Of a stretch of 37,495 nucleotides of DNA, positions 3,451 to 25,299 are shown piece by piece (position 1 is the first letter of the stretch; each line of letters starts with the position of its first letter). The notes under the pieces are model-generated. The model was not told the DNA's origin. It ran no database searches and worked only from the letters and a program-made list of their open reading frames with translations. The DNA comes from Gaiellales bacterium (GTDB taxonomy: Bacteria; Actinomycetota; Thermoleophilia; Gaiellales; JAICJC01). The DNA is taken from contig DASWRM010000041.1 of assembly GCA_036403155.1 (NCBI GenBank), forward strand, positions 1-37,495. The letters run 5' to 3'. The translations under genes and the position numbers were made by a program.

Positions 3451-3461
3451 CGCAGCGCAGC

Positions 3462-9272: not shown

Positions 9273-9309
9273 ACTACCGCCGATTCTCAAAGCGACCTGG
9301 GGAGGCGGA

Positions 9310-11397
9310 GTGGAACGAGGGGTGTACTTCGACGCGTGGTTTCCGCGCCAGCACTGCTACCACCCGAGCCTGCCCCCGCGGCGGCTGCGGATGGTGGAGG
9401 AGCTGGTCGAGTACCACGCAACCACGCTCGTGTGGGCGGCGCTCGGCGGCGGATCGATCTCCCTGCCCTACCTCGAGCAGGAGGCGTTCGACCCCGTCGA
9501 CCCGCGCTACCGGTTCTACGGGTTCCTGAACGACAGCGAGTTCATCGCCGAGTGCGACCGTCGCGGCATACGCGTGTTCGGCATCGTCTTCGAGGTTCAG
9601 GGCTGGGAGTTCCCGGCCGAGCTGGACGAGGACGAGAGCCGCATCCTCTCGCTGAACGAGCCGCGCGGCGTCGGAGCGCGCAGCTGGCTCGGGCTGCGCG
9701 AGTTCTCGCAGAACCGCTATCCGAAGCTGTGGAAGCCGATCGAACACTACTTCCCGGACGGCCTTCGCAACAGCCTCGGCGACCCCGTCCCCGACCTGCT
9801 CGAGGAGTGCTGCTCGCGCGACATCGACGGCACCCCGTGCCACGCGCTGTGGGTGGAGTGCCCCGACCGCGACCACCAGTGTTACACGATGGATCGCAAC
9901 AACCCGGTGTGGCGCGAGTACCTGAAGGCCGTCATCCGCATCCAGATCGATGCGGGCGTGCACGGCGTCCAGCTGGACGAGGCGGAGCTGCCGATCACGA
10001 GCCTCCAGTACGGCGGCTGCTTCTGCCGCGAGTGCATGGCGCAGTTCCGCGACCACCTGCGCGCGCTGCCGGACGACAGCCGGCCGGTCGAGCTCGAGGG
10101 CGAGGATCTCGCGGAGTTCCACTACGGCGAGTGGCTGAAGCAGCGCGGGTTCGACTTCAAGCACGGGCGCGAGCGGACGCCGCTCTACTGGGAATACCTG
10201 CGCTTCCAGCGCACCGCGATCGTCGGGTATTTCCGCGAGCTGGCCGACTACGCGCGGGAGTACGGACGGTCGAAGGGGCGCGAGGTTCAGGTGTCGGGCA
10301 ACTTCTTCAACCTGTTCGAGCACTACTACCCGCTCGAGCCGGCCGTCGACCTGATCATCACGGAGATGCGCAACACGATGCACCGCCAGCCGGACTGGTA
10401 CCGGTACGTCGCCGGGTTCGCCGGGGACAAGCCCGTGATCGTGGTGGAGAACCCCTACGGCGGCGTCGTGCCCGAGATGGTCGAGCAGCTGGCGCGTGGC
10501 CGCGGCTATGACCGCTACCGGCGGTCGCTGTACGAGGCGGCCGCGCTGGGCGTCAACATGAGCGTCCCCTACGGCGCCTGGATGGGCAGCGAGATCCAGG
10601 ACTCGTTCACGCCGCCGCACGAGCTGTCGCGCGAGATCCAGGACTTCCTGGCGGCGAACGAGCACCTCCACGCGCGCGGGACGGTGGCCGAGGTCGCCGT
10701 CGTCTACAGCATCGAAAGCGCGTTCGGGCGGCCGTCGGCGCGCGACGAGACGGCCGACAACCGGATGAACCTGCAGGAGGGAGAGGCGGCGCCGTTCTGG
10801 CGGGCCGGCGAGCGGCTGTCGGCGGAGGCGCTGCCGTACGACGTGATCATGTTCCCGGAGGGCGAGCTGCGGCCGGACACGATCACCGCCGCGGACATTG
10901 CCCGCTATCGCACCGTCGTCCTCCCCGACTGCCGGTTCCTGACCTGGCACCAGGCCGCCGTCCTGCAGGAGCACGCCGACGGTGGGGGCGCCATCGTCGC
11001 CCTGGGCCGGCTGGGGGAGAACCTGCCGGATGACGTCCGCGACCGGCTGTCGCAGGCCGTCTCGTGGGTGGATCGCGAGGAGGCCCTGGTGGGCGCGCTC
11101 GCCGGCGGCGCTCAGCTCGAGCTGGAAGGGCCGGCAACGGACGTCGCGGTGGGGCTCCACCGGCTCGACGCCGGTGTGGCGATGCACCTCATCCGCTACG
11201 ACCACGACGACGACCTGGACGCGGTGCCGCCGCTCGCCGAGCTGACGGTCACGCTGCGGCTGCCCGAGGAGCCCTCACGATGCGTTGCCCACAGCCCCGA
11301 GGGCCGCTTCTCCGCCGCACTCGAAAGGGCCGGCAACGGCCGCGTTCGGGTTCGCCTGCGGGACGTGCCGCTGTACGGGATCGTCGAGCTGCGGTGA
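9310..11397 (+). CDS. Glycoside-hydrolase-like protein, GH42/GHL6-like barrel with beta-galactosidase trimerisation-like domain
   Basis: A 695-residue protein without signal peptide, so cytoplasmic. Residues about 1-430 look like a TIM-barrel hydrolase: GVYFDAWFPRQ at the start, GIRVFGIVFE near 86-95, and GVQLDEAELP with Asp223/Glu224 as candidate catalytic carboxylates, followed by a CFCREC cysteine cluster (237-242). Residues about 470-600 resemble the Rossmann-like beta-galactosidase trimerisation domain (PYDVIMFPEGELR, VVLPDCRFLT, GGGAIVALGRLG). The overall plan recalls GH42 and the uncharacterised GHL6 family; activity is not proven. The start is the GTG at 9310 because GGGGAGGCGG, a strong Shine-Dalgarno sequence, ends just before it. 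It opens the plus-strand unit of the locus. Confidence 0.75.
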   Translation: MERGVYFDAWFPRQHCYHPSLPPRRLRMVEELVEYHATTLVWAALGGGSISLPYLEQEAFDPVDPRYRFYGFLNDSEFIAECDRRGIRVFGIVFEVQGWEFPAELDEDESRILSLNEPRGVGARSWLGLREFSQNRYPKLWKPIEHYFPDGLRNSLGDPVPDLLEECCSRDIDGTPCHALWVECPDRDHQCYTMDRNNPVWREYLKAVIRIQIDAGVHGVQLDEAELPITSLQYGGCFCRECMAQFRDHLRALPDDSRPVELEGEDLAEFHYGEWLKQRGFDFKHGRERTPLYWEYLRFQRTAIVGYFRELADYAREYGRSKGREVQVSGNFFNLFEHYYPLEPAVDLIITEMRNTMHRQPDWYRYVAGFAGDKPVIVVENPYGGVVPEMVEQLARGRGYDRYRRSLYEAAALGVNMSVPYGAWMGSEIQDSFTPPHELSREIQDFLAANEHLHARGTVAEVAVVYSIESAFGRPSARDETADNRMNLQEGEAAPFWRAGERLSAEALPYDVIMFPEGELRPDTITAADIARYRTVVLPDCRFLTWHQAAVLQEHADGGGAIVALGRLGENLPDDVRDRLSQAVSWVDREEALVGALAGGAQLELEGPATDVAVGLHRLDAGVAMHLIRYDHDDDLDAVPPLAELTVTLRLPEEPSRCVAHSPEGRFSAALERAGNGRVRVRLRDVPLYGIVELR

Positions 11398-11446: not shown

Positions 11447-11533
11447 TCCGCGACCCGGCTAAAGGTGAAATGCGGACGCGCGCCGCACTCGTTCCGGGCA
11501 CGAGGGATATCGCGACTCAAGGGGACTGGTTCC

Positions 11534-12931
11534 ATGCGTAGAGTGATGTTCGCCGCTCTCACGCTCGTCGCTGCGCTCGCAGCAGCGGCGTGCGGCAGCG
11601 GAAGCTCTGACAATGGCACGGGAGGCAAGGTGGTCTCGGTCAACCAGAGCGAGCAGCAGGGCGCGCTGGTGGGCAAGAACCTCGACCTCAGCAAGCTCAG
11701 CCCGGACATCAAGGATCCCGATCACCCGGTGACGATCACGTTCGAATCGCCATGGGTGAGCTCGCCGCTGATCCAGAAGCTGGCGAAGGAGTTCCACCAG
11801 ATCCATCCCAACATCACGGTCCAGCTGCAGGCGGTCAACCAGGACTCCGAGCAGACCAAGCTGACCACCCAGATCGCGGGCGGCAACGCCCCCGACAGCG
11901 CCTACATGGACTCCAGCACGGTGGGAGCGTTCGCACCACGTGGCGCGCTGGTCAGCCTGAACGACTACATGGGCAAGAGCATCGCGACACCGCCGGCGGA
12001 CTATCCCGACGCGTTCAAGACGATGAACAGCTACCAGGGGCAGTTCTACGCGCTCCCGTATGACGGCGAGTCGACCGGCCTCTTCTACCGCAAGGACCTC
12101 TTCCAGACCGCGGGCATCCCGGCGCCGCCGAAGACGTGGGCCGAGATGCAGGCCGACGCGCAGAAGCTGACGAACTCGTCGCTGCGCCAGTACGGCATCG
12201 CGCTCTTCGCCACGCAGTACGAGACCTCGTACTACTTCTACCCGTTCCTCTACCAGGCGGGCGGATCGCAGACCACGGACGACGACAAGCAGGCGGCCCT
12301 CAACACACCCGAGGCGATCAAGGCCGCGCAGTTCTACACCGGGCTCTCGAAGTACTCGCCGCCCGACCTGTGGAACTCGAACTCCTACGACGGCCGCGTC
12401 GCGTTCGCGACCGGAAAGGTCGGCATGTACATCGCCGGCGCCTGGATGATCGGCGACCTGCAGCGCAGCTTCCCGAAGGTGACCAGCAAGTGGGAGGTCG
12501 CGCCGATGCCGACGATGGACGCGGGCAGCCCCTGCCAGACGACGATCGCCGGCAACTCGCTCGCGGTGTTCTCGCAGAGCAAGAACCCGGATGCCGCCTG
12601 GAAGTGGATCGAGTTCCTGGACGCTCCGCAGAACATGGCGCTCTGGAACGTCGGCACCAAGAAGGAGCCCTCGTCCCTGCTGCCGCCGCGCAAGTCGCTG
12701 ATCGCCGACCAGACCACCTTCTCGGCGAACCCGCAGCTGCGCATCTTCAGCGAGATGATGGCGAACTGCGGCATCACGAACCTCAGCAACAACACCAACT
12801 GGGGCGAGGTCGACGGCGGGCCGCTTTCGACCGCCCTGGCCAAGGTGATCTACGGCAAGGCGGACGCCGCGACGGCGATGAACGACGCGGAGTCCCAGGC
12901 GAACGAGATCCTGAGCAAGCCGACGACGTGA
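11534..12931 (+). CDS. Sugar ABC transporter substrate-binding lipoprotein (family 1, MalE-like)
   Basis: A 465-residue extracellular solute-binding protein of the CUT1 importers. The N-terminus is a lipoprotein signal: MRR, a hydrophobic stretch, then LAAAAC with Cys20 as the lipidation site and a Gly/Ser-rich linker after it. The mature part shows the family pattern TITFESPW, LAKEFHQIHPNITVQ and IAGGNAPDSAYMDS. The start at 11534 is chosen because the signal peptide begins there and a GGGGA Shine-Dalgarno-like stretch lies upstream; the open frame continues further upstream but without signal-peptide logic. It binds the ligand outside the membrane and delivers it to the permeases encoded next. 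Ligand identity is unknown; the surrounding hydrolases suggest an oligosaccharide or glycoside. Confidence 0.93.
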   Translation: MRRVMFAALTLVAALAAAACGSGSSDNGTGGKVVSVNQSEQQGALVGKNLDLSKLSPDIKDPDHPVTITFESPWVSSPLIQKLAKEFHQIHPNITVQLQAVNQDSEQTKLTTQIAGGNAPDSAYMDSSTVGAFAPRGALVSLNDYMGKSIATPPADYPDAFKTMNSYQGQFYALPYDGESTGLFYRKDLFQTAGIPAPPKTWAEMQADAQKLTNSSLRQYGIALFATQYETSYYFYPFLYQAGGSQTTDDDKQAALNTPEAIKAAQFYTGLSKYSPPDLWNSNSYDGRVAFATGKVGMYIAGAWMIGDLQRSFPKVTSKWEVAPMPTMDAGSPCQTTIAGNSLAVFSQSKNPDAAWKWIEFLDAPQNMALWNVGTKKEPSSLLPPRKSLIADQTTFSANPQLRIFSEMMANCGITNLSNNTNWGEVDGGPLSTALAKVIYGKADAATAMNDAESQANEILSKPTT

Positions 12932-12968: not shown

Positions 12969-13919
12969 GTGGCGGTGACCGCCGCGCGCACCCCGCGCCG
13001 GGGTGCGCAGAAGTTCACGTCGAAGCGCAAGAAGAGCGTCCTTCGCCGGATGCGGGAGGAGTGGTCGGCGTACGCGATGCAGTCGCCGGGGCTGCTGCTG
13101 TTCGCCGTCTTCGTGCTCTTCTCGATCTCGTTCTCGATCTACATCAGCTTCCACCGGTGGGACATCCTGAACCCGGCGAAGCCGTACGTCGGGCTCGAGA
13201 ACTACCGCACCCTTGCCCACGACGACACCTTCAAGAAGTCCCTCTACAACACGTTCATCTACACGCTCTTCTCGGTCCCGCTGACGATGGTGGGCGGGCT
13301 GCTGATCGCGCTGCTGCTCAACCAGTCGATCCGGGGCCGCGGCCTCTTCCGCACGATCTTCTTCATCCCGGTGATCACGCCGATCGTGATCGCCGCGCTG
13401 ATCTGGAAGTGGGTCTACGACTACGACTACGGGCTCGCGAACTACTACCTGGAGAAGCTGCACATCATCGGCCAGCCGCAGCTGTGGCTGGCAAACCCGG
13501 ACCTCGCGCTGCCGGCCGTGATCGCCATGACGGTGTGGAAGGGGATGGGCTTTGCGATGGTGATCTACCTGGCCGGCCTGCAGAGCATCCCGGAGGAGTA
13601 CTACGAGGCCGCGAAGGTGGACGGCGCTGGGCCGCTTCACCGGCTGCGCTACATCACCATCCCGCTGCTCGCGCCGACGTCGTTCTTCCTGCTCGTGATC
13701 GGCATCATCGGCGCATTCCAGGTCTTCACCGAGATCTACATCATGACCGGCGGCGGGCCGCTGAGCTCGACCAGCACGATCGTCTGGTACCTCTGGACGA
13801 TGGGCTTCCGGAACTTCCAGATGGGCTACGCGACCGCGATCGCCTACGCGCTGTTCGCGATCATCTTCGTGTTCACGTGCATCCAGGTGCGGTTCCTCTA
13901 CCGGGAATCGGAGTACTAG
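12969..13919 (+). CDS. Sugar ABC transporter permease 1 (MalF/UgpA type)
   Basis: A 316-residue inner-membrane permease with about six hydrophobic segments after a basic N-terminal tail. The EAA loop, which contacts the ATPase, reads EAAKVDGAGPLHRLRYITIP near residues 218-237. The N-terminal SPGLLLFAVF and FHRWDILNP are typical of CUT1 permeases, and FTEIYIMTGGGP matches the family C-terminal signature. The GTG at 12969 is the first in-frame start, with another GTG two codons later; no strong Shine-Dalgarno sequence is seen. It follows the binding-protein gene by 37 bases and precedes permease 2 by 19 bases. It should form the heterodimeric channel with permease 2. Confidence 0.93.
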   Translation: MAVTAARTPRRGAQKFTSKRKKSVLRRMREEWSAYAMQSPGLLLFAVFVLFSISFSIYISFHRWDILNPAKPYVGLENYRTLAHDDTFKKSLYNTFIYTLFSVPLTMVGGLLIALLLNQSIRGRGLFRTIFFIPVITPIVIAALIWKWVYDYDYGLANYYLEKLHIIGQPQLWLANPDLALPAVIAMTVWKGMGFAMVIYLAGLQSIPEEYYEAAKVDGAGPLHRLRYITIPLLAPTSFFLLVIGIIGAFQVFTEIYIMTGGGPLSSTSTIVWYLWTMGFRNFQMGYATAIAYALFAIIFVFTCIQVRFLYRESEY

Positions 13920-13938: not shown

Positions 13939-14877
13939 ATGGCCGTCATCGCCCGCCGCAGGGGGCGCACCGGGGACGCCGTCGCACGGCCGCCGGCCCG
14001 CCGCAGGAAGACCTCGCCCGTCGCCCGTGCGTGGCACGTCGCCACGTACGTGATCCTGGCCGTCGGCGCGATCGTCTTCATCGGCCCGTGGGCATGGATG
14101 CTGGTCGCATCGATCAAGCCGATCGGCGAGATGTTCCAGTTCCCGCCGAGCTGGTGGACGCACAATCCGACGCTCTCGAACTACGAGAACTTTCTCAAGT
14201 CCGAGAACGTGGGCCGCTGGTTCCTGAACAGCGCGTACATCGCCTCGATGGTGACGATCCTGAACCTCGTCTTCTCGTCGATGGCGGCCTACTGCTTCGC
14301 CAAGCGCGATTTCCCGGGGCGAACCGCGCTGTTCCTGATGGGCCTGGGCACGATGGCGATCCCGTACGCGGTGTTCCTGATCCCGAACTACCTGGTGCTC
14401 AAGCACATCCCGCTGTTTGGCGGCAACAACCTCCTGGGCAACGGCGGCCACGGCTGGCTCGACTCGTACTGGGGGCTGATCGTCCCCGGCTCGGTGAGCA
14501 TGTTCAACATCTTCCTGCTGCGGCAGTACATGCGCACGATCCCGAACGAGCTGCTCGACGCCGCCCGCATGGACGGTGCGAACCACTTCCAGATCTGGCT
14601 GCGCGTGATCATGCCGCTGACGCGGCCGGCGCTGGCCGCCGTCGGCATCTTCACGTTCACGGGCGTGTGGGACGACTTCCTCGGCCCGCTGATCATCATC
14701 TCCAGCTCTGACCACTACACCGTGCAGCTGGGGCTCGCGTCGTTCGTGAAGAAGAACCAGACCTCGTGGGACCTCGTGATGGCGGGCTCCGTGCTCGCGA
14801 CGCTGCCCGTGCTGATCGCATTCCTGCTCTTCCAGCGACAGTTCATCCGCGGGATCGCGATCACCGGGCTGAAGTGA
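13939..14877 (+). CDS. Sugar ABC transporter permease 2 (MalG/UgpE type)
   Basis: A 312-residue inner-membrane permease, the MalG-type partner. The N-terminal basic tail is followed by a first membrane helix (VILAVGAIVFIGPWAWML), then by MSMF-like segments. The EAA-type loop reads DAARMDGANHFQIWLRVIMP near residues 211-230. The C-terminus ending in RGIAITGLK is characteristic of CUT1 MalG-type subunits. The ATG at 13939 is preceded by AAGGAGGAG, the best Shine-Dalgarno sequence in the operon. Its stop overlaps the start of the GH13 gene as GTGA (14874-14877), so importer and hydrolase synthesis are coupled. Confidence 0.94.
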   Translation: MAVIARRRGRTGDAVARPPARRRKTSPVARAWHVATYVILAVGAIVFIGPWAWMLVASIKPIGEMFQFPPSWWTHNPTLSNYENFLKSENVGRWFLNSAYIASMVTILNLVFSSMAAYCFAKRDFPGRTALFLMGLGTMAIPYAVFLIPNYLVLKHIPLFGGNNLLGNGGHGWLDSYWGLIVPGSVSMFNIFLLRQYMRTIPNELLDAARMDGANHFQIWLRVIMPLTRPALAAVGIFTFTGVWDDFLGPLIIISSSDHYTVQLGLASFVKKNQTSWDLVMAGSVLATLPVLIAFLLFQRQFIRGIAITGLK

Positions 14878-16832
14878 GCGGGCTGACGCGTGAGGAGCTG
14901 CTGCGGGCGTCCGGGCTCGCGGCATTCGGAGTCCTGATGGGAGGCTGCAGCGTGACGGGAGGCAACTCGCACCACCCCGCGCTCGCCAGGCGAGGCGGCG
15001 ACGCGTGGGCATGGGACAAGCAGCTCGACGGCGTGACGGACGGCTGCACGGACCTGCGGGTCAGCCTGAACGGGAAGGCGGCAAAGCCGTCGGTCTCCGG
15101 CAAGCGGTTCCAGATGCAGGCTCCGCTCGACCGGCCGAGCAACGCCGTCGAGGTGAGCTGCGGCGGGAGCAACGCCGTCCAGGTCGTCTACACGCAGCGC
15201 CTGACGGCCCGGCCGACGGCGCGGATCGACGTGGCCGTCAAGGGCGGCAAGGTGACGCTCGACGGGTCGTCCAGCGAGGCGACCGAGCCGACCGGCGCCG
15301 CGATCAGCACGTGGACGTGGACGCCGCGGGACTCGAACCCCGCGCAGCTGCGGTTCGACGGAGCGACCGACGGTCCAAGCGTCACGCTGCACGCGCCGCA
15401 TGCCCACGGCGAGTACTACGTCACCCTCGAGGTGGCGGACGCCGACGGGAACACCGACCACAGCACCACCTACTTCGTCGTCGACGAGCACGGCGCGCGG
15501 GCCGTCGACTTGGCGCATGAGTCGCCGGCGTGGATCGCGTCCGCCGTGGTCTACGGGGTGATCCCCTTCCTGTTCGGCTCGCCGCCGATCCAGGCGGTGA
15601 CGAAGCGACTCCCGTACCTGCAGAAGCTCGGCGTCAACGCCCTGTGGCTGTCGCCCATCACCGAGCCCGATGTCGGCGACTTCGGCTACGCCGTCACGAA
15701 CTACTTCAAGGTGAATCCCAACTACGGGACGGCCGACGACGTCAAGCAGCTCGTCGAGACGGCCCACGGGCTCGGCATCCGCGTGCTGATGGATTTCGTG
15801 CCGAACCACAGCTCGGATCACCATCCGTACTTCGTCGACGCGCAGAAGCACGGCACGTCGTCGGACTACTACGACTTCTACGACCGCGACGAGAACGGGG
15901 ACTACACCTATTACTTCGACTGGCAGAACCTGCCGAACCTGAACTACGACAACCCCGAGATGCGCCGCTTCATGACGGAGGCGTTCTCGTACTGGGTGCG
16001 GGAGTTCGACGTCGACGGGTTCCGGGTGGATGCCTGCTGGGGCGTGCGGCGTCGCCGCCCCGGCTACTGGGCCGAGTGGCGGGCCGAGATGAAGCGGATC
16101 AAGCCTGACCTGCTGTTGCTCGCAGAGGCAACCGGTCGTGACCCGTGGTACCTCGAACACGGCTTCGACGTCGGCTACGACTGGACGAACGAGCTCGGCC
16201 ACTGGGCCTGGTCGGACGTCTTCTACGACACCCCCAGCCTCGCCCAATCCCTGCACGACGCGATGGCCGCCGACCCGGAGCCCGCCAAGGTCTTCCGCTT
16301 CCTCAACAACAACGACACCGGCACCCGCTTCGTCAGCACCTACGACAGCGACACGACGCGCGTGGCGGCGACGCTGCTCCTGACGTTGCCGGGGATCCCG
16401 TGCGTCTACACCGGCGACGAGATCGGTGCGCAATACGACCCCTACCAGGACGTCCAGCCGGTCGACTGGAGCGACGACCACCTCGATCTCCGCGGCTACT
16501 ACACCAAGATCATCCATCTGCGTACCTCCGAGCCGAGCCTCACGTCCTCCGCATGGACCCCGCTCGACGCGAGCCCGAAGCGCTCGGGGCTGTACGCGTT
16601 CCTGCGCCACGCGCCGGACGGGAGCGATCCAATCCTGGTCGTCCTCAACTTCGCGCGCGAGGTGCTCGAGGCGCAGATCACGCTGCCTCCGGCGTTCGCG
16701 CACCTGTCCGGGGCATCGTTCCGCGATCTGCTCACCGGGAAGCGAGCCGCGGCCGGCGGCGGCAACCCCCTCGGGATCCGGATCACAGCCATCAACTCGC
16801 TCGTGCTCAAGCCGGAGGGAGCGGCCGCGTGA
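14874..16832 (+). CDS. Exported GH13 alpha-amylase-family lipoprotein with N-terminal PKD/Ig-like region
   Basis: A 652-residue alpha-glucan-acting hydrolase or transglycosidase. The N-terminus has a hydrophobic stretch ending LMGGC with Cys25 as lipidation site; TREELLR before it resembles a Tat motif with only one Arg. Residues about 110-205 form a PKD/Ig-like beta domain (VTLDGSSSEA, YYVTLEVADADGN). The GH13 barrel follows: region I DFVPNH (307-312), nucleophile Asp386 in GFRVDA, acid/base Glu418 in LLAEAT, and transition-state Asp481 in FLNNND, where the usual NHD is NND. PCVYTGDEIG and a C-terminal beta domain complete it. The GTG start overlaps the permease stop. As a surface lipoprotein it probably trims oligosaccharides before import. 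Specificity is unclear. Confidence 0.9.
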   Translation: MSGLTREELLRASGLAAFGVLMGGCSVTGGNSHHPALARRGGDAWAWDKQLDGVTDGCTDLRVSLNGKAAKPSVSGKRFQMQAPLDRPSNAVEVSCGGSNAVQVVYTQRLTARPTARIDVAVKGGKVTLDGSSSEATEPTGAAISTWTWTPRDSNPAQLRFDGATDGPSVTLHAPHAHGEYYVTLEVADADGNTDHSTTYFVVDEHGARAVDLAHESPAWIASAVVYGVIPFLFGSPPIQAVTKRLPYLQKLGVNALWLSPITEPDVGDFGYAVTNYFKVNPNYGTADDVKQLVETAHGLGIRVLMDFVPNHSSDHHPYFVDAQKHGTSSDYYDFYDRDENGDYTYYFDWQNLPNLNYDNPEMRRFMTEAFSYWVREFDVDGFRVDACWGVRRRRPGYWAEWRAEMKRIKPDLLLLAEATGRDPWYLEHGFDVGYDWTNELGHWAWSDVFYDTPSLAQSLHDAMAADPEPAKVFRFLNNNDTGTRFVSTYDSDTTRVAATLLLTLPGIPCVYTGDEIGAQYDPYQDVQPVDWSDDHLDLRGYYTKIIHLRTSEPSLTSSAWTPLDASPKRSGLYAFLRHAPDGSDPILVVLNFAREVLEAQITLPPAFAHLSGASFRDLLTGKRAAAGGGNPLGIRITAINSLVLKPEGAAA

Positions 16833-17830
16833 GATCGGCGGTGCTGCGGGCTCCTCGGGACTTCGTCATCGAGGACATCGACGTGCCGGAGATCGCGCCG
16901 ACGGAGGTGCTCGTCCGCGTGGTTGCCTGCGGCGTCTGCGCGTCGGAGCTCGACATGTGGACCGGCGACACCGACCGCGAGTTCCCCATCCGCGTGGGGC
17001 ACGAGCCGAGCGGGGTGGTGGAGCGGGTCGGATCCGAGGTCGAGGGCGTCCTTCCCGGAGACCCCGTCGCCCTGTTCGCGACCGAGTACGGGTTCTCGGA
17101 GTACGTCGCGGTCGACCAGCGGTTCGTCCTGCAGGCGGGCGATCTGCCGCTCGAGCTCGCGCTCGCGGAGCCCGTCGCCTGCGCGGTCAACGCTGTCGAC
17201 CTGGCGCACGTGCGGCTGGGTGACGACGTGCTCATCGTCGGAGCCGGGTTCATGGGCGCGCTGGTGCTGAAGCTCGTCCTCATGCAGGGGCCGCGTCACG
17301 TGATCGTCGCGGACGCCCGCCGCGAGGCGCTCGAGCGGGCCCGCGCCCTCGGCGCGACGCACGCGATCGACGTCACCCGCGAGGATCTGGTCGAGCGTGT
17401 CCGCGAGATCTGCGACCGCGTGCCGGCGGGCATCCACGACGCGGGCGTCGACCCGCTCGACGAGACGGGCGTCGACGTCGCCTTCGAGATCACGGGGGCG
17501 CAGGCGCCGCTCGACGTGCTCGGCGACGCTGTGCGGATGAGCGGCAAGCTGGTCGTCGTCGGCTACCACCAGGGCGGGAGGCGAACCATCCCGCTCGGCC
17601 AGTGGAACTACAAGGCGCTGCAGCTCGTCAACGCCCACTTCCGCGAGATCGCCACGATCATGCGCGGCATGCGCGTCGCCATGCGGCTGCTCTCGTCGGG
17701 GCGCCTGCGGCTGGACGACCTCGTGACGCACCGCTTCCCGCTCGACCAGATCGCCGATGCGTTCGCCGTCGCGCATGACAAGCCGGAGGGCTTTCTCAAG
17801 TCGACGGTCCTGATCGGAGGCGACCGATAG
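16829..17830 (+). CDS. Zinc-type medium-chain alcohol/polyol dehydrogenase (MDR), without structural-zinc lobe
   Basis: A 333-residue medium-chain dehydrogenase. The catalytic-zinc region shows ACGVCASE (Cys37) and GHEPSG (His58, Glu59), with AEPVAC (Glu114/Cys118) as the third ligand zone. The coenzyme fold has IVGAGFMGAL (137-146). The four clustered cysteines of the structural-zinc lobe, normally between about residues 85 and 115, are absent, making this a short form. The GTG start overlaps the GH13 stop (GTGA, 16829-16832). In a glycoside locus it most likely oxidises a sugar, sugar alcohol or glycoside with NAD(P). The substrate is not deducible. Confidence 0.87.
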   Translation: MRSAVLRAPRDFVIEDIDVPEIAPTEVLVRVVACGVCASELDMWTGDTDREFPIRVGHEPSGVVERVGSEVEGVLPGDPVALFATEYGFSEYVAVDQRFVLQAGDLPLELALAEPVACAVNAVDLAHVRLGDDVLIVGAGFMGALVLKLVLMQGPRHVIVADARREALERARALGATHAIDVTREDLVERVREICDRVPAGIHDAGVDPLDETGVDVAFEITGAQAPLDVLGDAVRMSGKLVVVGYHQGGRRTIPLGQWNYKALQLVNAHFREIATIMRGMRVAMRLLSSGRLRLDDLVTHRFPLDQIADAFAVAHDKPEGFLKSTVLIGGDR

Positions 17831-17874: not shown

Positions 17875-20800
17875 ATGTCGCGGGAGCTGTTCGCCACGCC
17901 GCCGCGCGAGTACGGGATCCTGCCGTTCTGGTTCCTGAACGGCGAGCTCGACCCCGACGAGATGCTCGTGCAGCTGCGCGAGTTCCGCGACAAGGGCATG
18001 CCGGGGATCATCCTGCACGGCCGCTACGGGCTGGAGACGCCCTACATCGGCGACGTCTACCTCGACCGCATCAAGCTGGCCGTCGACGAGGCGGCGCGCC
18101 TCGGGCTGACAACCTGGATCTACGACGAGATGAACTGGCCGAGCGGCACCGCGGACGGCCGCGTCCTGCGCGAGCGGCCCGACCTCGCCCAGCGCTACAT
18201 CGAGTGCATCTCGATGGACGTGCGCGGCCCCTGGTTCGCCTACCTGACCGGGCAGGACAGCAGGTACGTCAACTTCGAGCGCTCGACGCCGGTTGCCGCC
18301 TTCGCCATCTCCAGCGAGGGCGAGGTGCTCGACCTGACGCCGAACCTCTCGTTCACCTACGTCATCCCGTGGGAGATCCCGCCGGGCAACTGGAAGCTGA
18401 TGTACATCGTCGAGAAGCGCGCGGAGTACTACATCGATGCGCTCGACCCCGAATCGACCAGCGAGTTCCTCCGCATCGGCTACGAGCCGTATCTCGACCG
18501 GCTGGGCGAGGTCGACCCCGAGCAGATGCTCGGCTTCTACACGGACGAGCCGGCCATGCACTACTTCCTGACCGCGCAGTCCAACCCGATCGTGCCGTGG
18601 ACGAAGGACATGTTCCGCCGCTTCCACGAGCGCTGCGGGTACGACCTGCGACGCCGCCTCCCGGATCTGTTCTTCGACGTCAGCCCCGACAGCGCCCGCG
18701 TCCGGCACGACTTCTACAACGCGATCAGCGACTTCTACGCCGACGCGTACTACCGGCAGATCCACGAGTGGTGCGGCGAGCGCGGCCTCCTGTTCACCGG
18801 CCATCTGCTGTATGAGGAGTGGCTGCGGCAGATGATCCGCGTCGAGGGCAACCTCTTCCGGCACTATCCGCACCTGGACGTGATCGGCGTCGACCACCTC
18901 TACCCGATCGTCGGCACCCGCGACCTCCCGGCCGAGCACGTGGCCATGAAGGTCGGTTCGTCGGCGGCCCACCAGCTCGGCAGCGAGCGGCTGCTGTGCG
19001 AGTCGTTCGGCGGCATCTTCATGGACGCCACGATGCAGCGCATGAAATGGGTGGCCGACTGGGAGTACGTGCTCGGGGTGAACCTGCTGAACCCGCACGG
19101 CTTCCACTACACGCTGGAGGGGCCGCGGAAGCGCGACTGGCCGCCTTCGATGTTCTACCAGTACCCCTGGTGGCGCTACTACGGCGCCTTCTCGGAGTAC
19201 ATCAGCCGGCTGAGCCACCTGCTCAGCGAGGGCCGCCACGTCGCGAAGCTGGCGGTGATCTGGCCGATCAATGCGATGTTCGCCGCCTACCGGCCGCAGG
19301 AGCGCACGCCGCTCGGCGACCGGATCGAGTACGACCTGAACGCGATCACGGACCTGCTCCTGCGCGTTCACCACGACTTTGACTACGTCGACGAGGATCT
19401 GCTCGCGCAGGCGGATGCGCAGGACGGGGCGCTGCTCGTCGGCGACGAGCGTCACGCGCTGGTGGTCGTGCCGCCGATGGCGCACATCCAGATGGCGACG
19501 CTCGAGCGGCTCGAGCGGTTCGTGCAGGAGGGCGGCGCCGTGCTCGGCGCCGTGCTGCTTCCCGCGGAGGCATTCGAGGGCGACCGGCTGGTGGACGTGC
19601 GCGACCGCGTCGCGAGGCTGTTCGGCGTCGAGCCCGGACGCGTCGGGCGGGTCGATCCTTCGCCGGGCATCCGTTTCACCCGTATCGAGCACGGTGCCGG
19701 ACGGGTGGGCTTCCTCGACACGGCGTCGCTTGCCCGTGCCCTCCCCGAGCGGCTGCAGGCCGAGCTCGGCCAGCAGGGCATCCCCGAGAGCCCGGCGTTC
19801 GTCGTCGAGCCGGGAGAGCTGGACACACGGTATGGGTTTCGCCCGCCCGCGGGCGACGCCGTCGACATCACGGACGAGGTCGTCGCCGAGCGCGAGTCGG
19901 TGCGCGTCGCGCTTGCGGATGCGGTGGCCGCGCTGATCGAGCCCGACGTCGAGATCGACAATCCGGAGGTGTTCGCGCTGCATCGCGTGCGCGACGGCCG
20001 CGACCTGCTGTTCCTCGTCAACTCCACCCGCCACCCGCAGGTCGCCGAGGTCGCCCTCCCCGGCGACGTCACGCCGATGCACTGGGATCCGTCCACCGGC
20101 GAGACGCGGCCGCATGCCCCCTGGCGGCACGACGGCCGGCGTACCCGGGTGACCGTCGAGCTGCCGCCGGTCGGGTCGGCGTTCGTCATGTGGGAGCCAG
20201 AGCCTCCGTCCGAGGGGGTGCGCGTCGTCGCCACCGATGTCGCGGTGGACTCACTCGACGGCGGCATCCTGACCGGCCACCATGCCGGCGGCGAGGCGAC
20301 CATCACGGTGGAGGAGGGCGGCCGGGAGCGCGAGCTTCGCGTGCCGCTCGACCCGCCGGTCGAGCCGGTCGAGCTCGCCGATGGCTGGACGCTTGCCGCC
20401 GAGACGCCGAACGCGCTGGTGGTGCGCGCGTGGCGCGCGCGGGCGGAGGACGATGGGACCGGCCCCGAGTGGTATGCCGGCAGCGACGTGGACGAGGACG
20501 CCGGGTGGCTCGAGATGGTCCCGGGCGCCTGGTCGTACCAGCTGCCGACCGAGCCAGACCGGCCGTACCCGATTCCGGTGTGGTACCGGATCCACGTGCG
20601 CATTGCCGAGCGGCCGCAGGAGCTGCGCCTGCTCGTGGACGGGTTCGCCGGGCTCGAGTGGCGGCTCCACGTCAACGGCGCGGCGGCCGTGGCGGCGCCC
20701 GAGCCGAGCGGCTTCGACAGCCAGATGCGCGCCGTCGACATCACGGGCCAGGTGCGCGAGGGGGACAACGTGCTCGCGCTGCGGCTGGTCGTGGCCGATG

Positions 20801-21246
20801 CCACCGACGGCCTGCTCGACCTCATCAAGCTGGTGGGGCCGTTCGGAGTCGAGGACGGCGCGATCACCGCGATCCGGGAGGACGCGCGGCCTGCGCCGTG
20901 GACAGAGCAGGGCTATCCGTTCCTCTCGGGGACGGCTGTCTACAGCCGTCGCGTCGATCTGCCCGGCGAGCTGGGCGCGGCGCGCGTGGTGGTCGAGGCG
21001 GACGCGGGCGATGACGTGCTGGAGGTGCTCGTCGACGGCGAGCCGGCCGGCGTCCGGCTGTGGGAGCCCTACGGCGTCGACATCACCGACCGGCTGGCCG
21101 GCCGCACCGGCTTCACGCTGGGGCTGCGCGTCGCGAACACCGCGGCGAACCTGCTCGGCGGGACGGATCGCCCGTCGGGGCTGCGCGGAGCCCCCCGGCT
21201 GGTCATACGACGCCCCGTCACCGCGGATCTGCGGAGCACGGCGTGA
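17875..21246 (+). CDS. Large GH106-like (alpha-L-rhamnosidase-related) glycoside hydrolase
   Basis: A 1123-residue cytoplasmic protein with no signal peptide. The N-terminal barrel begins PFWFLNGELD; near 81-91 WIYDEMNWPSG is very close to the YDE-x-x-WPSG block of GH106 and related large hydrolases, and GFYTDEPAM (Asp224/Glu225) supplies a second acidic pair. A Rossmann-like middle (about 480-560: VVVPPMAHIQM, GGAVLGAVLLP) precedes beta-sandwich domains; the C-terminal 250 residues look like a galactose-binding-type jelly roll (LRLLVDGFAGLEWRLHVNG). By family, it would remove rhamnose or a similar sugar from imported glycosides, but many GH106-like proteins lack tested activity. The ATG at 17875 lies 44 bases after the dehydrogenase and has no clear Shine-Dalgarno sequence. 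Confidence 0.78.
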   Translation: MSRELFATPPREYGILPFWFLNGELDPDEMLVQLREFRDKGMPGIILHGRYGLETPYIGDVYLDRIKLAVDEAARLGLTTWIYDEMNWPSGTADGRVLRERPDLAQRYIECISMDVRGPWFAYLTGQDSRYVNFERSTPVAAFAISSEGEVLDLTPNLSFTYVIPWEIPPGNWKLMYIVEKRAEYYIDALDPESTSEFLRIGYEPYLDRLGEVDPEQMLGFYTDEPAMHYFLTAQSNPIVPWTKDMFRRFHERCGYDLRRRLPDLFFDVSPDSARVRHDFYNAISDFYADAYYRQIHEWCGERGLLFTGHLLYEEWLRQMIRVEGNLFRHYPHLDVIGVDHLYPIVGTRDLPAEHVAMKVGSSAAHQLGSERLLCESFGGIFMDATMQRMKWVADWEYVLGVNLLNPHGFHYTLEGPRKRDWPPSMFYQYPWWRYYGAFSEYISRLSHLLSEGRHVAKLAVIWPINAMFAAYRPQERTPLGDRIEYDLNAITDLLLRVHHDFDYVDEDLLAQADAQDGALLVGDERHALVVVPPMAHIQMATLERLERFVQEGGAVLGAVLLPAEAFEGDRLVDVRDRVARLFGVEPGRVGRVDPSPGIRFTRIEHGAGRVGFLDTASLARALPERLQAELGQQGIPESPAFVVEPGELDTRYGFRPPAGDAVDITDEVVAERESVRVALADAVAALIEPDVEIDNPEVFALHRVRDGRDLLFLVNSTRHPQVAEVALPGDVTPMHWDPSTGETRPHAPWRHDGRRTRVTVELPPVGSAFVMWEPEPPSEGVRVVATDVAVDSLDGGILTGHHAGGEATITVEEGGRERELRVPLDPPVEPVELADGWTLAAETPNALVVRAWRARAEDDGTGPEWYAGSDVDEDAGWLEMVPGAWSYQLPTEPDRPYPIPVWYRIHVRIAERPQELRLLVDGFAGLEWRLHVNGAAAVAAPEPSGFDSQMRAVDITGQVREGDNVLALRLVVADATDGLLDLIKLVGPFGVEDGAITAIREDARPAPWTEQGYPFLSGTAVYSRRVDLPGELGAARVVVEADAGDDVLEVLVDGEPAGVRLWEPYGVDITDRLAGRTGFTLGLRVANTAANLLGGTDRPSGLRGAPRLVIRRPVTADLRSTA

Positions 21247-21740
21247 CGCGGCTTGCCGCCGAGCCGCTCGACCGCTCGGCGTTCGCCCCCTTCGGCGCCG
21301 TCATCGACCGCCCCGACCGGCCGCTGGACGCGTCGGGCCCGGGATGGAGCTGGTGGGCCGAGACGCAGCTGATCGGACCGACCGCCGACGGCTATGGGGT
21401 CGGGTACCTCGATCTTCAGCCGTCGGCTCCGTCGTTCGACTGGGCGGAGCGCCACATGCGCACCGAGGAGCTGATCGCGCCGCTGTCGGGCGGCTGCCTG
21501 CTCTACGTCGGCCCGCCCGACCGGCTCGAGCAGCCTGACGCCCTCCCGCCGCTGGAGCGGTTCCGCGTGTTTCGCATCGCGGCCGGCCAGGGTGTTGTGC
21601 TGGCCCCCGGCGTCTGGCACGGGGCTCCGCTCGCCGACGGCTCCCCGGCGACGGCTATGGTGCTCCTGCAGAAGGGCACCGGAACGGACGATACGGTCGT
21701 GGTCAGATTCGAGCACCGCCCGGTGCAGATCGATGCCTGA
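21243..21740 (+). CDS. Ureidoglycolate lyase (AllA)-fold cupin-like protein
   Basis: A 165-residue protein whose length and pattern match the AllA family: LDRSAFAPFGAVID at the start, the central HMRTEELIAPLSGGCLLYVGP, and the late GQGVVLAPGVWHGAP with its His in the usual metal or active-site position. Classical AllA splits ureidoglycolate into glyoxylate and urea, but no other allantoin or ureide genes lie here, and AllA-like proteins in sugar loci are generally uncharacterised. The GTG start overlaps the GH106-like stop (21243-21246). It precedes the ferritin-like gene by 11 bases. I infer a role in the sugar or amine pathway of this locus rather than purine breakdown. Confidence 0.78.
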   Translation: MTRLAAEPLDRSAFAPFGAVIDRPDRPLDASGPGWSWWAETQLIGPTADGYGVGYLDLQPSAPSFDWAERHMRTEELIAPLSGGCLLYVGPPDRLEQPDALPPLERFRVFRIAAGQGVVLAPGVWHGAPLADGSPATAMVLLQKGTGTDDTVVVRFEHRPVQIDA

Positions 21741-21751
21741 GGGGGCGAACG

Positions 21752-23119
21752 ATGCCGATCGTTGACCGCCGCGAGTTCGGCGGCCGCTTCTCCGTCAAGG
21801 AGAACTCGCAGCGGCTGGCGAACTACCGCTACCTCGAGATCCAGCTGATGGAGATCGTCGGCGGCTGGTCGCACACCACGCCGCAGCTGGCCTTCAAGGC
21901 CGCATTCGGTTACCAGGTGTACGACCACGCACAGGCGGCGGACATGCTCGGCGAGCGGCTCTGGCAGCTGCGCTCCGGGCGCGAGCGGCAGGAGCCGGCG
22001 ACCGACGAGGTCGCGCGGCTGTGCGAGCACGTCTGGACGCTGACCGACACGATCGACCGGCTCGTAGCCGTCTACCGGGTCCTGGAGCCGCATCTCGTCA
22101 GCACGTACGTCTACCACGCCGACGCGACCGATCCGCTCGCCGACGCGCCGACCGCCCGCGCCCTGCGCAGCCTCGCCGCGATGGACCAGTCGCACGTCGC
22201 ATGGGGCCAGGCCGCGCTCGAGTCGCTGACCCAGACGTCGGACGGACGGCGGCGAGCGCTCGAGGTGCAGGCCGACATCGAGTCCCGGCTGGTGGAGTGC
22301 GGCGGCGTGACCGGTCAGGGCATCGAGTCGCACTGGCTCGCCTTCCACAGCGCCCGCGACGCGGCCCGTCCGTCGGCGCGGGTGAAGCGCGGCAAGGGCG
22401 GCTACCGGTTCGTGAAGACGTCGCCGGCGCTCGACCATCCGGTCGTCGAGGAGCCGTTCTGGTTCTCCGGCGACCCCGCCGACTTCGCGGTCTACGAGAC
22501 CGAGGACGAGTGGTCGCTCGAGGGCTTCCGCCACAAGTTCCACCAGCTGCTGTACGGCGAGGTGGAGACCACAGACCGGATGGGCAAGATGCTGGCCGAG
22601 TTCCCGGACCTGCCGTGGGAGATGCGGATGGAGCTCGCCCACCAGATGTGGGACGAGGCGCGGCACATCGAGATCGTGGCGAAGGCGTGCGAGGAGCTGA
22701 TGGGCGCTGACCTCGGCTACGGGCCGTGGTCGCTGGTCTGGTGGTGGATGCAGAACGAGGAGGATCCGCTGCGGCGGATCACGGTGACCAACTCCTGGGC
22801 CGAGGCGAACCTGATGCAGACCCTGCGGATCTGGCGGCAGGAGGCGGAGAAGCGCGGGTACGGGCGGATCGCCGAGCTGTGCGACTACCTGCAGGCCGAC
22901 GAGCTGACGCACGTGAAGCTGGCGACGACCTGGATCCGCGAGCTGCTCCGCGACGATCCCGCCCGGCAGGACGACCTCGTGGCGTGGGGGCGCAAGGCGG
23001 TGGCGCGCATCGGCGGCTTCTGGAACGCGGACGACGTTCCGGAGACCACGCACTTCACGTTCCAGCAGTCCGCGCCCACGCAGGTGCCTGCGAGCGCTGC
23101 GCGCCACCCGGGTGAATGA
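21752..23119 (+). CDS. Two-domain ferritin-like diiron protein (DUF455-like)
   Basis: A 455-residue, mostly helical protein resembling DUF455/ferritin-like families. The C-terminal four-helix bundle carries a full carboxylate-diiron ligand set: Glu270 (or 272), Glu302-x-x-His305 (DEARH), Glu351 (WAEAN) and Glu384-x-x-His387 (DELTH). The N-terminal half (about 20-160) looks like a second bundle with a weaker set: Glu29/34, Asp58-His59 and Asp145-x-x-His148. This architecture suggests an O2-using diiron oxidase or oxygenase, or an iron/peroxide-handling protein; the reaction is unknown. The ATG at 21752 has GAGGGGG just upstream. It overlaps the HAD gene by 8 bases. It sits next to an H2O2-producing type of flavoenzyme, which may be relevant. 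Confidence 0.75.
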   Translation: MPIVDRREFGGRFSVKENSQRLANYRYLEIQLMEIVGGWSHTTPQLAFKAAFGYQVYDHAQAADMLGERLWQLRSGRERQEPATDEVARLCEHVWTLTDTIDRLVAVYRVLEPHLVSTYVYHADATDPLADAPTARALRSLAAMDQSHVAWGQAALESLTQTSDGRRRALEVQADIESRLVECGGVTGQGIESHWLAFHSARDAARPSARVKRGKGGYRFVKTSPALDHPVVEEPFWFSGDPADFAVYETEDEWSLEGFRHKFHQLLYGEVETTDRMGKMLAEFPDLPWEMRMELAHQMWDEARHIEIVAKACEELMGADLGYGPWSLVWWWMQNEEDPLRRITVTNSWAEANLMQTLRIWRQEAEKRGYGRIAELCDYLQADELTHVKLATTWIRELLRDDPARQDDLVAWGRKAVARIGGFWNADDVPETTHFTFQQSAPTQVPASAARHPGE

Positions 23120-23741
23120 CCCGCTCGTGGCTGCCCTCGAGGCGGCCGACACGGTGTTCTACGACTTCGACGGTGTGCTCGCGGACACGGAGCCCGTGCA
23201 CCTGCGCAGCTACCGCGAGCTGATGGCCGACATGGGCGGGGAGCTCGACGAGGGGCTGTTCCGGCAGCTGATCGGACGCAAGGAGCGGGAGATCTGGCCG
23301 GCGGTGATCAGCCGGCCGGTGGAAATCGACGCCCTCGTCGCCAGACGCGCAGAGCGATTCCTCGCCATCGCCGAGGACGAGCGGCTGGCGCTGGACGCCC
23401 GCCTCGAGTGGATGCTTCGCTGCGGTGGCGGCGAGCGCGTCCTGCTCAGCTCGGGCAACCCGGCGATCGTCGACCGGCTGCTGGAGGTCTGGGACGTCGC
23501 CGGCTCCTTCGCCGAGGTACACGCGCTCGGCGACAGCCCGGTCGACAAGGTGGAGCAGCTCCGCCGGCTGGTGGGCCGGCGCCGCGCGCGCGGCCCGTGG
23601 CGCGGCGTGCTGGTGGAGGACTCTCCGCGCATGCTGGCGGAGGGGCGGCACCTCGGCCTGGTCACGGTCGGCGTGGTGCACTCGCTGAACCGGCGCGAGG
23701 ACCTGGAGGCGGCGGACATGGTCGTCGACCGGGCGGCGTGA
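23112..23741 (+). CDS. HAD-superfamily hydrolase, beta-phosphoglucomutase/phosphatase-like
   Basis: A 209-residue HAD protein of the subfamily that includes beta-phosphoglucomutases and sugar-phosphate phosphatases. Motif I DFDGVLADTEP puts the nucleophile at Asp18 and the acid/base at Asp20, motif II is LLSSGN, a conserved Lys lies in PVDKVEQL, and motif IV is VEDSPRM. The alpha-helical cap lies between about residues 30 and 90. It begins at a GTG that overlaps the ferritin-like gene by 8 bases and ends in a GTGA overlap with the flavoenzyme, so it is embedded in the same coupled cassette. Likely substrate: a phosphorylated sugar or related metabolite. Confidence 0.85.
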   Translation: MNDPLVAALEAADTVFYDFDGVLADTEPVHLRSYRELMADMGGELDEGLFRQLIGRKEREIWPAVISRPVEIDALVARRAERFLAIAEDERLALDARLEWMLRCGGGERVLLSSGNPAIVDRLLEVWDVAGSFAEVHALGDSPVDKVEQLRRLVGRRRARGPWRGVLVEDSPRMLAEGRHLGLVTVGVVHSLNRREDLEAADMVVDRAA

Positions 23742-24898
23742 CCGAGACGCGCGTCGACGTGGTGGTCGCCGGCCTCGGCGGGATGGGGAGCGCGGCGGCT
23801 TACTGGGCGGCGGCGATGGGAGCGTCCGTCGCAGGGCTCGAGCAGTTCGAGCTGGGACACGACCGCGGCGGGTCGCACGACCATTCGCGGCTGACGCGGC
23901 TCGCCTACCACCACCCTGACTACGTCCTCCTGGCGCGGCGCGCGTTCGACGTGTGGCGCGAGGTGGAGCAGGCCGCCGGCGAGCAGCTCGTCGTCCTGAC
24001 CGGCGGGGTGGATATGTTCGCGTCCGATGCGCCGCTCGGGCGCGAGGTGTACGCGTCCAGCCTCGAGCAGGCCGGTGCGGCGTTCGAGCGGGTGACCGGG
24101 GTCGACGTCCGGCGCCGCTGGCCGCAGCTGCAGCCACCGGAGGAGGTGGAGGCCCTCGTCCATCCGCAGGCCGGCCTGGTCGCGGCCGACCGGGCGAACG
24201 CCGCGCACCAGCGGCTCGCGCAGGCGGCCGGCGCGCGGCTGGTGGAGCGCTGCCCGATTCGCGCGCTGCGAGCTGACGGTGGCGACATCGTGGTCGAGGC
24301 GGCGGCCGGGACGTGGCGGTGCCGGTCGGTGATCGCAGCGGCCGGCGCGTGGCTGAACGAGCTGCTCGAGCCGCTCGGCGAGGCGCTCCCGCTCACCGTC
24401 ACGCAGGAGCAGATCTCCTACCTGGAGGCCGGGGATCTGGAGGCGTTCGACCGCGCGCGGTTCCCCGTCTGGATTTGGCACGGAGCGCCGACGTTCTATG
24501 GGTTTCCGGTGTTCGGAGAGCGGGCGGTGAAGGTCGCGGAGGACCACGGCGGCCCGGTCGTCACCGCACGCAGCCGCAGCATGCAGCCGGACGAGGCGGC
24601 GGAGCGGCGGGTGGTGTCGTTCGCGCGGCGTGTGATCCCGGGGCTCGGGAGCCCGGTGCGGTCGAAGACGTGCCTCTACACGCTGACCCCGGATCGCGAC
24701 TTCGTGATATCCGCGCTGCCACGGCACCCGAACGTGATTGCGGCCGTCAGCGACGGCCACGGGTTCAAGTTCGCGTCGCTGATCGGGATGCTGCTCGCCG
24801 AGCTCGCGCTCGGACGCGAGCCGTCGGTCGACCTGACGCGCTTCCGGGCAGACCGTCCCGCGCTCGCCTCCGGCGCCGGCGAGCCGGCGCGGGTGTAG
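23738..24898 (+). CDS. FAD-dependent oxidoreductase, monomeric sarcosine oxidase / N-methyl-amino-acid oxidase family
   Basis: A 386-residue amine oxidase. The N-terminal FAD motif GLGGMGSAA (12-20) is followed by HDHSRLTRLAYH, a variant of the family SSHG-SR-I block. Cys312 in SKTCLYTLTPDRDF is the covalent-FAD cysteine of MSOX, and SDGHGFKF supplies His341 and Lys344, matching the active-site His and the O2-activating Lys region of the family. It should oxidise a secondary amine such as an N-methyl amino acid, or an amino sugar derivative such as a fructosyl amino acid, with H2O2 as by-product. The GTG start overlaps the HAD stop (23738-23741). It is the last enzyme of the plus unit. Confidence 0.88.
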   Translation: MTETRVDVVVAGLGGMGSAAAYWAAAMGASVAGLEQFELGHDRGGSHDHSRLTRLAYHHPDYVLLARRAFDVWREVEQAAGEQLVVLTGGVDMFASDAPLGREVYASSLEQAGAAFERVTGVDVRRRWPQLQPPEEVEALVHPQAGLVAADRANAAHQRLAQAAGARLVERCPIRALRADGGDIVVEAAAGTWRCRSVIAAAGAWLNELLEPLGEALPLTVTQEQISYLEAGDLEAFDRARFPVWIWHGAPTFYGFPVFGERAVKVAEDHGGPVVTARSRSMQPDEAAERRVVSFARRVIPGLGSPVRSKTCLYTLTPDRDFVISALPRHPNVIAAVSDGHGFKFASLIGMLLAELALGREPSVDLTRFRADRPALASGAGEPARV

Positions 24899-24940
24899 GC
24901 GGCACGTGTGCCGGAAAGCCGCGGGGGGTATGGACCGGTC

Positions 24941-25084
24941 ATGCTCTGGCTGCTCCTGCTCATCCTGGTGATCGTGGTGGTCGGCGTCGTCGGCGCCATC
25001 AAGATCGCGCTGTGGGTGATCCTGATCGCGGTGCTCATCGCCCTGCTGGCCGGCTTCCTCGGCCGCGGGCTGTTCAGCCGCTGA
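24941..25084 (+). CDS. Small hydrophobic membrane protein (47 residues)
   Basis: An ATG at 24941 opens a 47-residue frame with two hydrophobic segments: MLWLLLLILVIVVVGVVG, then AIK, then a second helix of about 25 residues, ending GRGLFSR. Length, the Lys between the helices and the short basic tail match the small proteins annotated as 'hydrophobic protein' in many actinobacteria, whose role is unknown. It lies 42 bases after the flavoenzyme. The nearest G-rich stretch (GCGGGGGG) is rather far for a Shine-Dalgarno sequence. A hairpin follows 18 bases after the stop. Confidence 0.7.
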   Translation: MLWLLLLILVIVVVGVVGAIKIALWVILIAVLIALLAGFLGRGLFSR

Positions 25085-25102
25085 CGCCCCCGGCGTCGCG
25101 AG

Positions 25103-25125
25103 ACCGTCACGTGCCTCGTGACGGT
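25103..25125 (+). terminator. Perfect 9-bp inverted repeat after the small membrane protein; terminator-like
   Basis: ACCGTCACG (25103-25111) and CGTGACGGT (25117-25125) form a stem with loop TGCCT. There is no T-run. The right arm is repeated exactly at 25147-25155, so an alternative pairing is possible. The remainder of the 215-base convergent gap (to 25299) holds no gene I can support, but it includes an unusually AT-rich CCAATTATTGG palindrome near 25205. Confidence 0.4.
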
Positions 25126-25299
25126 GTCCGACTCCCGTCGTGTGGGCGTGACGGTCGCGTTACGACCCTGTGGCAGGTGCGCCGCATGGTTGGGCGGATC
25201 CGGCGCCCACCCCAATTATTGGAGTCCAACCCCTGCCGCGTGCGTGTGATGCGCCCGTGACGCTTCGGTGAAGGCTCGTCCGGGAGGCTCCGGCAGCGC

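Follow-up and report, generated by a model that had tools for sequence, protein, structure and literature searches.

Two of four coupled genes on a Gaiellales contig belong to a conserved glycoside-utilisation module with an uncharacterised diiron protein

Why should a relative of the allantoin enzyme AllA, a ferritin-like diiron protein, a putative phosphatase and a flavin-dependent amine oxidase be encoded head to tail behind the gene of a glycoside hydrolase? This question is raised by contig DASWRM010000041.1 of a Gaiellales bacterium (Actinomycetota, Thermoleophilia; assembly GCA_036403155.1), which in its full length of 37,495 nucleotides is the window analysed here; the draft genome to which it belongs measures 3.2 Mb and has its close relatives among the Thermoleophilia. 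All four genes lie on the plus strand. They encode an AllA-like cupin-fold protein of 165 amino acids (21243..21740, with a GTG start at 21243), a two-domain ferritin-like protein of the DUF455 type with a C-terminal diiron site (21752..23119, 455 amino acids), a phosphatase resembling the HAD superfamily (23112..23741, 209 amino acids), and a flavoenzyme of the monomeric sarcosine oxidase / N-methyltryptophan oxidase family (23738..24898, 386 amino acids). The original prediction had treated them as one tightly coupled cassette, and the coupling itself was borne out: the glycoside hydrolase family 106 (GH106)-like gene upstream ends at 21246 and thus overlaps the AllA-like gene by 4 bases, a gap of 11 bases precedes the diiron gene, and overlaps of 8 and 4 bases join the diiron gene to the HAD gene and the HAD gene to the flavoenzyme gene. 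The GC content at third codon positions is of the coding type in all four (0.89-0.95), no promoter- or terminator-like site was seen in the region 20800-25400, and purK follows the flavoenzyme gene on the opposite strand. A single transcript across the four-gene stretch is plausible as a prediction from sequence. The four genes close a long operon at its 3' end; it starts at about position 9310 and encodes in plus-strand order a protein named here U9241, a sugar-binding protein, two permeases, a GH13 protein, a zinc-dependent alcohol dehydrogenase (Zn-ADH), the GH106-like protein, and the AllA-like, diiron, HAD and flavoenzyme proteins.

Whether the four genes also belong together in other organisms was examined by ortholog searches among 61 related genomes and by a scan with the diiron protein alignment (A1) against 84,980 species genomes, with the locus neighbourhoods compared by tblastn. 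The wide scan retrieved candidates via two peptide patterns and therefore yields close diiron orthologs only, many of them on short contigs; at 16 of the 18 loci found the sequence continues for 2.3 kb or more downstream. These 18 loci, with diiron proteins 72-81% identical, occur in Thermoleophilia and in Chloroflexota, mainly Thermomicrobiales, and two of them coincide with the contigs of the diiron-bearing relatives, full-length orthologs (75-81%) having been found in only two other genomes among the 61. Neither the HAD nor the flavoenzyme gene was found near the diiron ortholog at any of the 18 loci. The co-occurrence of all four families in other genomes, on which the original prediction had staked its case, is thus not seen, and the four-gene cassette as a conserved unit was rejected. 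What does recur beside the diiron orthologs are the sugar-binding protein and permeases (48-65% identity), the Zn-ADH (53-61%), the GH106-like protein (46-72%, six of 18 loci), U9241 (57-78%, eight of 18) and an intact AllA-like protein (50-58%, five of 18, with a remnant in locus L053). U9241 and the diiron ortholog are present in exactly the same three of the 61 genomes, with a chance of 2.8e-5 if the two were independent and kinship is ignored, and long matches to U9241 occur in 12 of the 17 diiron-bearing genomes, the AllA-like protein being present in fewer of them. Where GH106-like and AllA-like genes are present the order is ADH, GH106, AllA, diiron; in loci without them (L044, L045, L049, L051, L060) the ADH gene is the immediate upstream neighbour of the diiron gene. 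The comparison shows a conserved module of sugar ABC transporter, GH13 protein, Zn-ADH, GH106-like protein, AllA-like protein, diiron protein and U9241 in two phyla. Of the four genes in question, those of the diiron and AllA-like proteins alone belong to this conserved, hitherto undescribed glycoside-utilisation cluster; the claimed co-conservation holds for the GH106-like, AllA-like and diiron genes and fails for the HAD and flavoenzyme genes.

The position behind the diiron gene is filled differently elsewhere. In genome G004 the module is spread over two contigs, with FGGY, MalK, PF01261 and MocA genes divergent from those of the GH42-fold protein, the sugar-binding protein, permeases, GH13, ADH and GH106; its second part holds GH106, AllA-like and diiron genes, and then a GH38 gene where the HAD and flavoenzyme genes stand here (L043, 4064-7024). 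A PIG-L deacetylase gene takes this slot in G040 (L057, 10894-11664) and that of a URO-D-like protein in L054 (11370-12551). The 3' end might thus be a swappable slot for enzymes acting on different glycoside decorations, with the HAD protein and flavoenzyme contributing to the pathway in this lineage in place of GH38 or PIG-L. The differing contents fit such a view, which we consider possible though doubtful, as only four differing slots are at hand, no content is repeated among them, and chance neighbours may explain them.

The flavoenzyme offers a second line of evidence on the role of the last two genes. It belongs to the DAO family (PF01266, 142.7 bits) and scores above the cut-off of the N-methyl-L-tryptophan oxidase family PRK11259 of NCBIfam (318.8 against 257) and below that of soxA_mon (TIGR01377; 229.2 against 479.65). 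As had been claimed, the cysteine for covalent flavin adenine dinucleotide (FAD) attachment is kept: Cys312 aligns to Cys315 of monomeric sarcosine oxidase (MSOX), the residue bound to FAD, and Lys265 aligns to MSOX Lys265, the lysine that activates O2. The likeness extends to the positions of Arg49, Tyr254 and Tyr317 and to Arg54 and Lys344, which correspond to MSOX Arg52 and Lys348. These two we take to hold the substrate carboxylate in MSOX, and their retention points, by alignment, to an N-alkyl amino acid as substrate rather than a glycosylamine. The enzyme differs from its characterised relatives in its operon context and in two replacements, active-site His269 of MSOX being Asp269 and Met245 being isoleucine. 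Sarcosine oxidases are matched with E values around 1e-54, fructosyl-amine oxidases with values around 1e-5. Flavoenzyme relatives are found in 51 of the 61 genomes, the best 44-46% identical; eight regions around them (L122-L129) contained no HAD gene and no module gene save MalK-like ATPases, and the few neighbours assigned by Pfam were SBP_bac_5, MFS and S-methyltransferase genes. The family labels of the original prediction held in Pfam for the AllA-like, DUF455, DAO and GH106 proteins, and the HAD protein just missed the cut-offs of PF00702 (24.8 against 26.4) and PF13419 (23.5 against 23.8). Inspection by eye shows all four HAD motifs, which makes membership of the superfamily likely. 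No close relative was found among 60 related genomes, the nearest being at most 35% identical. The HAD and flavoenzyme genes are lineage-specific additions to the operon which probably serve a separate reaction, with the HAD protein probably acting as a phosphatase and the flavoenzyme as an N-alkyl amino acid oxidase; they may also serve the host's own version of the route.

These results bear directly on the pathway proposed at the outset, in which the four genes together break down an amino sugar, an N-methyl sugar or a glycosylamine by oxidation, the flavoenzyme oxidising the C-N bond, the HAD protein removing phosphate and the AllA-like protein cleaving a carbinolamine. The tight translational coupling, the retained FAD-binding cysteine and O2-activating lysine, and the presence of a gene for a nucleoside hydrolase, an N-glycoside-cleaving enzyme, in the divergent arm and close to related loci would fit this pathway. 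It is nevertheless very unlikely, with its assigned roles, as GH38 (G004) or PIG-L (G040) genes replace the HAD-flavoenzyme pair, the carboxylate-binding positions are kept, and the fructosyl-amine oxidases are by far the more distant relatives. The amino-sugar scheme rested on the flavoenzyme, and it is disfavoured because this key enzyme is not conserved at the diiron loci.

The protein at the centre of the conserved module is then the diiron protein. Its match to DUF455 (PF04305, 42.8 bits against a cut-off of 34.3) covers residues 256-400 and thus the C-terminal half only. The predicted ligands E270, E302xxH305, E351 and E384xxH387 lie on four successive predicted helices, and none of the six varies among the 16 orthologs compared. 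Across 14 sequences including relatives of 24-26% identity, which have other neighbours and were used for ligand conservation only, five of the six are invariant and the sixth nearly so. A real diiron site is supported by this conservation in sequence. The N-terminal half forms an apparent second bundle without a full site. As the orthologs are too alike, the structural model is of low confidence (mean predicted local distance difference test score, pLDDT, 49.6) and the C-terminal domain alone was used. Foldseek matches of the model were consistently ferritin-like, with bacterioferritins among the weak ones. When residues 250-455 were realigned, aldehyde-deformylating oxygenase (ADO), MiaE and R2lox were matched at Z values of 15-16 over 170-190 residues, and as these three are tied the reaction cannot be read from the fold. 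With them the protein shares the E-ExxH-E-ExxH ligands on four helices; it differs in being only 10-17% identical and in having two domains with a degenerate N-terminal bundle. A search of solved structures with diiron sequence profiles gave R2-type matches only, with E values of 0.05 or worse. Characterised proteins of this DUF455 branch were not found, nor was there any functional paper on this type of DUF455 or on the module in the literature searched. Of the O2-using diiron candidate described originally, the conserved six-ligand site and the ferritin-like fold stand, and the use of O2 is something we infer.

A protective function would be another way to account for this protein, which might be a catalase-like dimanganese protein or a ferritin-like protein handling iron, removing the peroxide made by oxidases. 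A ferritin-like four-helix bundle with two metals fits many roles, bacterioferritins do appear among the weak fold matches, and a flavin oxidase forming H2O2 is encoded next in the operon here. At the other loci, however, the tie to the glycoside genes persists although the diiron gene has no flavin amine oxidase gene as a neighbour. In fold, oxygenases and oxidases come closest. This leaves the protective function rather unlikely.

Some further loci with DUF455 proteins may be mentioned. Distant two-domain relatives (24-26%) in L034, L036, L039 and L040 adjoin an ATP-grasp-like protein recognised by eye (LEFNADSPAGIGYTD); in related actinobacteria these two are a conserved pair of their own. 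In L033 (G003:C118, 711-1024) a frameshifted and truncated diiron remnant lies beside unrelated genes; judged from this remnant, the module appears to have been lost recently in G003. Genes of luciferase-like (PF00296) monooxygenases stand beside the diiron gene in L046 (1541-2761) and L053 (8297-9364), in different arrangements.

The AllA-like protein matches PF04115 with 45.4 bits against a cut-off of 23. Wherever present its gene is directly upstream of the diiron gene, and in all five other loci with an intact copy it lies between the GH106 and diiron genes. The protein is best read as an accessory to the GH106 branch that need not be present. Alternatively, it might be a genuine ureidoglycolate lyase for the salvage of purine nitrogen, with an accidental position behind the GH106-like gene. 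In accordance with such a function are the Pfam match and the ERH and GVWH motifs, which are kept as in 2bdr. All NCBIfam AllA cut-offs are, in contrast, far out of reach (best 35.3 against 160, also 29.7 against 260), the conserved position at about 50-58% identity is hard to reconcile with an accident, and no allantoinase above the cut-off is found in the genome, so that a purine salvage role is highly improbable, and the AllA-like protein was rejected as an allantoin enzyme on the basis of these scores. The earlier statement that allantoin genes are lacking is correct for the window, which contains no gene of this pathway; genome-wide, the best allantoinase match reached 222 bits, below the cut-off of 357.85, and an allantoicase search gave no match with controls equally silent. 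A 32% relative of the AllA-like protein, left out of the comparison in alignment A5, adjoins another ABC importer and IF-2B-family and BtpA-family proteins in L133 of genome G308 (at about 7722-8120), and a broader use of AllA-like proteins in sugar pathways is possible.

The upstream part of the operon, all on the plus strand, gives the module its link to sugars. U9241 (9310..11397, 695 amino acids) is followed by the sugar-binding lipoprotein (SBP_bac_1, 11465..12931), permeases of the MalF/UgpA type (12969..13919) and the MalG/UgpE type (13939..14877), and the GH13 protein, whose open reading frame has the limits 14766..16832 with the true start probably near 14878, and for which a lipobox-like LMGGC in the sequence suggests a lipoprotein. 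The Zn-ADH (16829..17830) is of the medium-chain dehydrogenase/reductase type, with sorbitol dehydrogenase as nearest solved structure. The GH106-like protein (17875..21246, 1123 amino acids) has no obvious signal peptide and scores 80.9 bits against a cut-off of 29 for PF17132, which it shares with the GH106 alpha-L-rhamnosidases. Known from sequence alone, it differs from them in its partial profile match, its cytoplasmic appearance and a score of 81 against 1300 for the equivalog AlphaRhamBT4145. U9241 is without a Pfam family, GH42 (PF08532) being missed with 13.2 against 25.8 bits. Its model (mean pLDDT 70.4) predicts a fold like that of GH42 and other GH-A-clan glycosidases, matching the alpha-agarase AGA (9m0b) at Z 21.4 over 525 residues and GH42 enzymes at Z around 15, with 17% identity. 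Two conserved glutamates are placed at strand ends, E224 being invariant in nine of nine orthologs and E380 in all seven that cover it. Judged from its modelled fold, U9241 is probably a glycosidase that no Pfam family covers and belongs to an apparently unclassified family.

On the minus strand a divergent arm encodes a Gfo/Idh/MocA oxidoreductase nearest to levoglucosan dehydrogenase (8100..9290), a PF01261 xylose-isomerase-like TIM barrel protein (7135..8103, 108 bits), a MalK-type ATPase of ABC transporters (5920..7119) and an FGGY kinase assigned as xylulokinase XylB (3462..4886, 526 bits against a cut-off of 380). The PF01261 gene adjoins the MocA gene and the ABC transporter; its product has a 67% identical copy in G004 and is weakly related to 2-hydroxy-3-keto-glucal hydratase. 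The MocA and PF01261 families are also used in the levoglucosan route (PMC7676230, PMC10066097), and the clusters for levoglucosan and 3-keto-glycosides (LgdA, LgdB1, LgdB2/B3, LgdC and an ABC transporter) resemble the module in the sugar ABC transporter, the LgdA-like MocA protein, the PF01261 protein and the oxidation of the sugar before cleavage. The module differs by its additional GH13, GH106-like, GH42-fold, Zn-ADH, AllA-like and diiron proteins and by a MocA protein well under the LgdA cut-off, and levoglucosan itself is an unlikely substrate.

Taken together, we give about an even chance to an operon for glycoside import and degradation in which the Zn-ADH and the diiron protein act in sequence and the HAD protein and flavoenzyme are local additions. 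The link to an imported glycoside, already drawn in the original prediction, is upheld by the conserved transporter, GH13, GH106-like and GH42-fold genes, and the combination of transporter and hydrolases makes uptake and cleavage of a glycoside likely. The GH13 lipoprotein would likely trim a glycan outside the cell and the binding protein, permeases and MalK import the product, which the GH106-like and GH42-fold enzymes would likely split in the cytoplasm. By analogy to levoglucosan utilisation, a 3-keto-type oxidation followed by elimination or hydration is a plausible function of the MocA/PF01261 pair. The direct adjacency of the ADH and diiron genes suggests that their products act in sequence; our tentative proposal is an oxidation of a sugar hydroxyl by the Zn-ADH, followed by an O2-dependent step of the diiron protein on the resulting compound, which we hold to be possible at somewhat less than even chances. 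That the AllA-like protein serves the GH106 branch as a lyase or isomerase is a little more doubtful. In the Thermoleophilia versions xylulokinase would channel the product into pentose phosphate metabolism. A more specific form of the scheme, in which the diiron protein acts as a sugar oxygenase and in the manner of ADO removes or splits off a carbon after the Zn-ADH has formed a carbonyl, thus converting a hexose to a pentose for xylulokinase, with the AllA-like protein finishing the product, is unlikely. ADO acts on fatty aldehydes.

Several observations weigh against the sequential action of Zn-ADH and diiron protein in glycoside degradation. The substrate and reaction of the module are deduced from gene content, the diiron protein was modelled with low confidence (mean pLDDT 49.6), matches between helical bundles carry no information at Z values up to 13, and no electron-transfer partner is encoded near the diiron gene. 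The MocA protein scores 172.8 against the 650 of the LgdA equivalog NF052479, and close MocA and PF01261 orthologs occur in Thermoleophilia only, with more distant ones in the Chloroflexota loci. L054 has a GH106 gene and lacks the AllA-like gene, and the translational coupling of the HAD and flavoenzyme genes speaks for a functional link of some kind in this species.

The module described here is a glycoside-utilisation system common to soil actinobacteria and Chloroflexi, in which an unclassified family of glycosidase fold shares its phylogenetic profile with a strictly conserved, uncharacterised diiron protein. The corrected cassette makes the HAD protein and flavoenzyme unsuitable for guessing the pathway. 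If the diiron protein indeed oxidises sugars, it would bring an O2-dependent step into bacterial glycoside catabolism and a function to this branch of DUF455. We know of no ferritin-like diiron enzyme in glycoside catabolism, and a sugar oxygenase removing carbon would, if true, be the first.

Two further genes on the minus strand, at the end of the divergent arm, are those of a PfkB/ribokinase-like kinase (2614..3465) and of the nucleoside hydrolase (1652..2617). Their membership in the module is uncertain; in L132 and L056 relatives of the hydrolase lie close to the module. An FAD_binding_4 oxidase related to BagK/FevA1 (416 bits against a cut-off of 800) is encoded on the minus strand at 177-1823 of the window, adjacent to the sugar genes.

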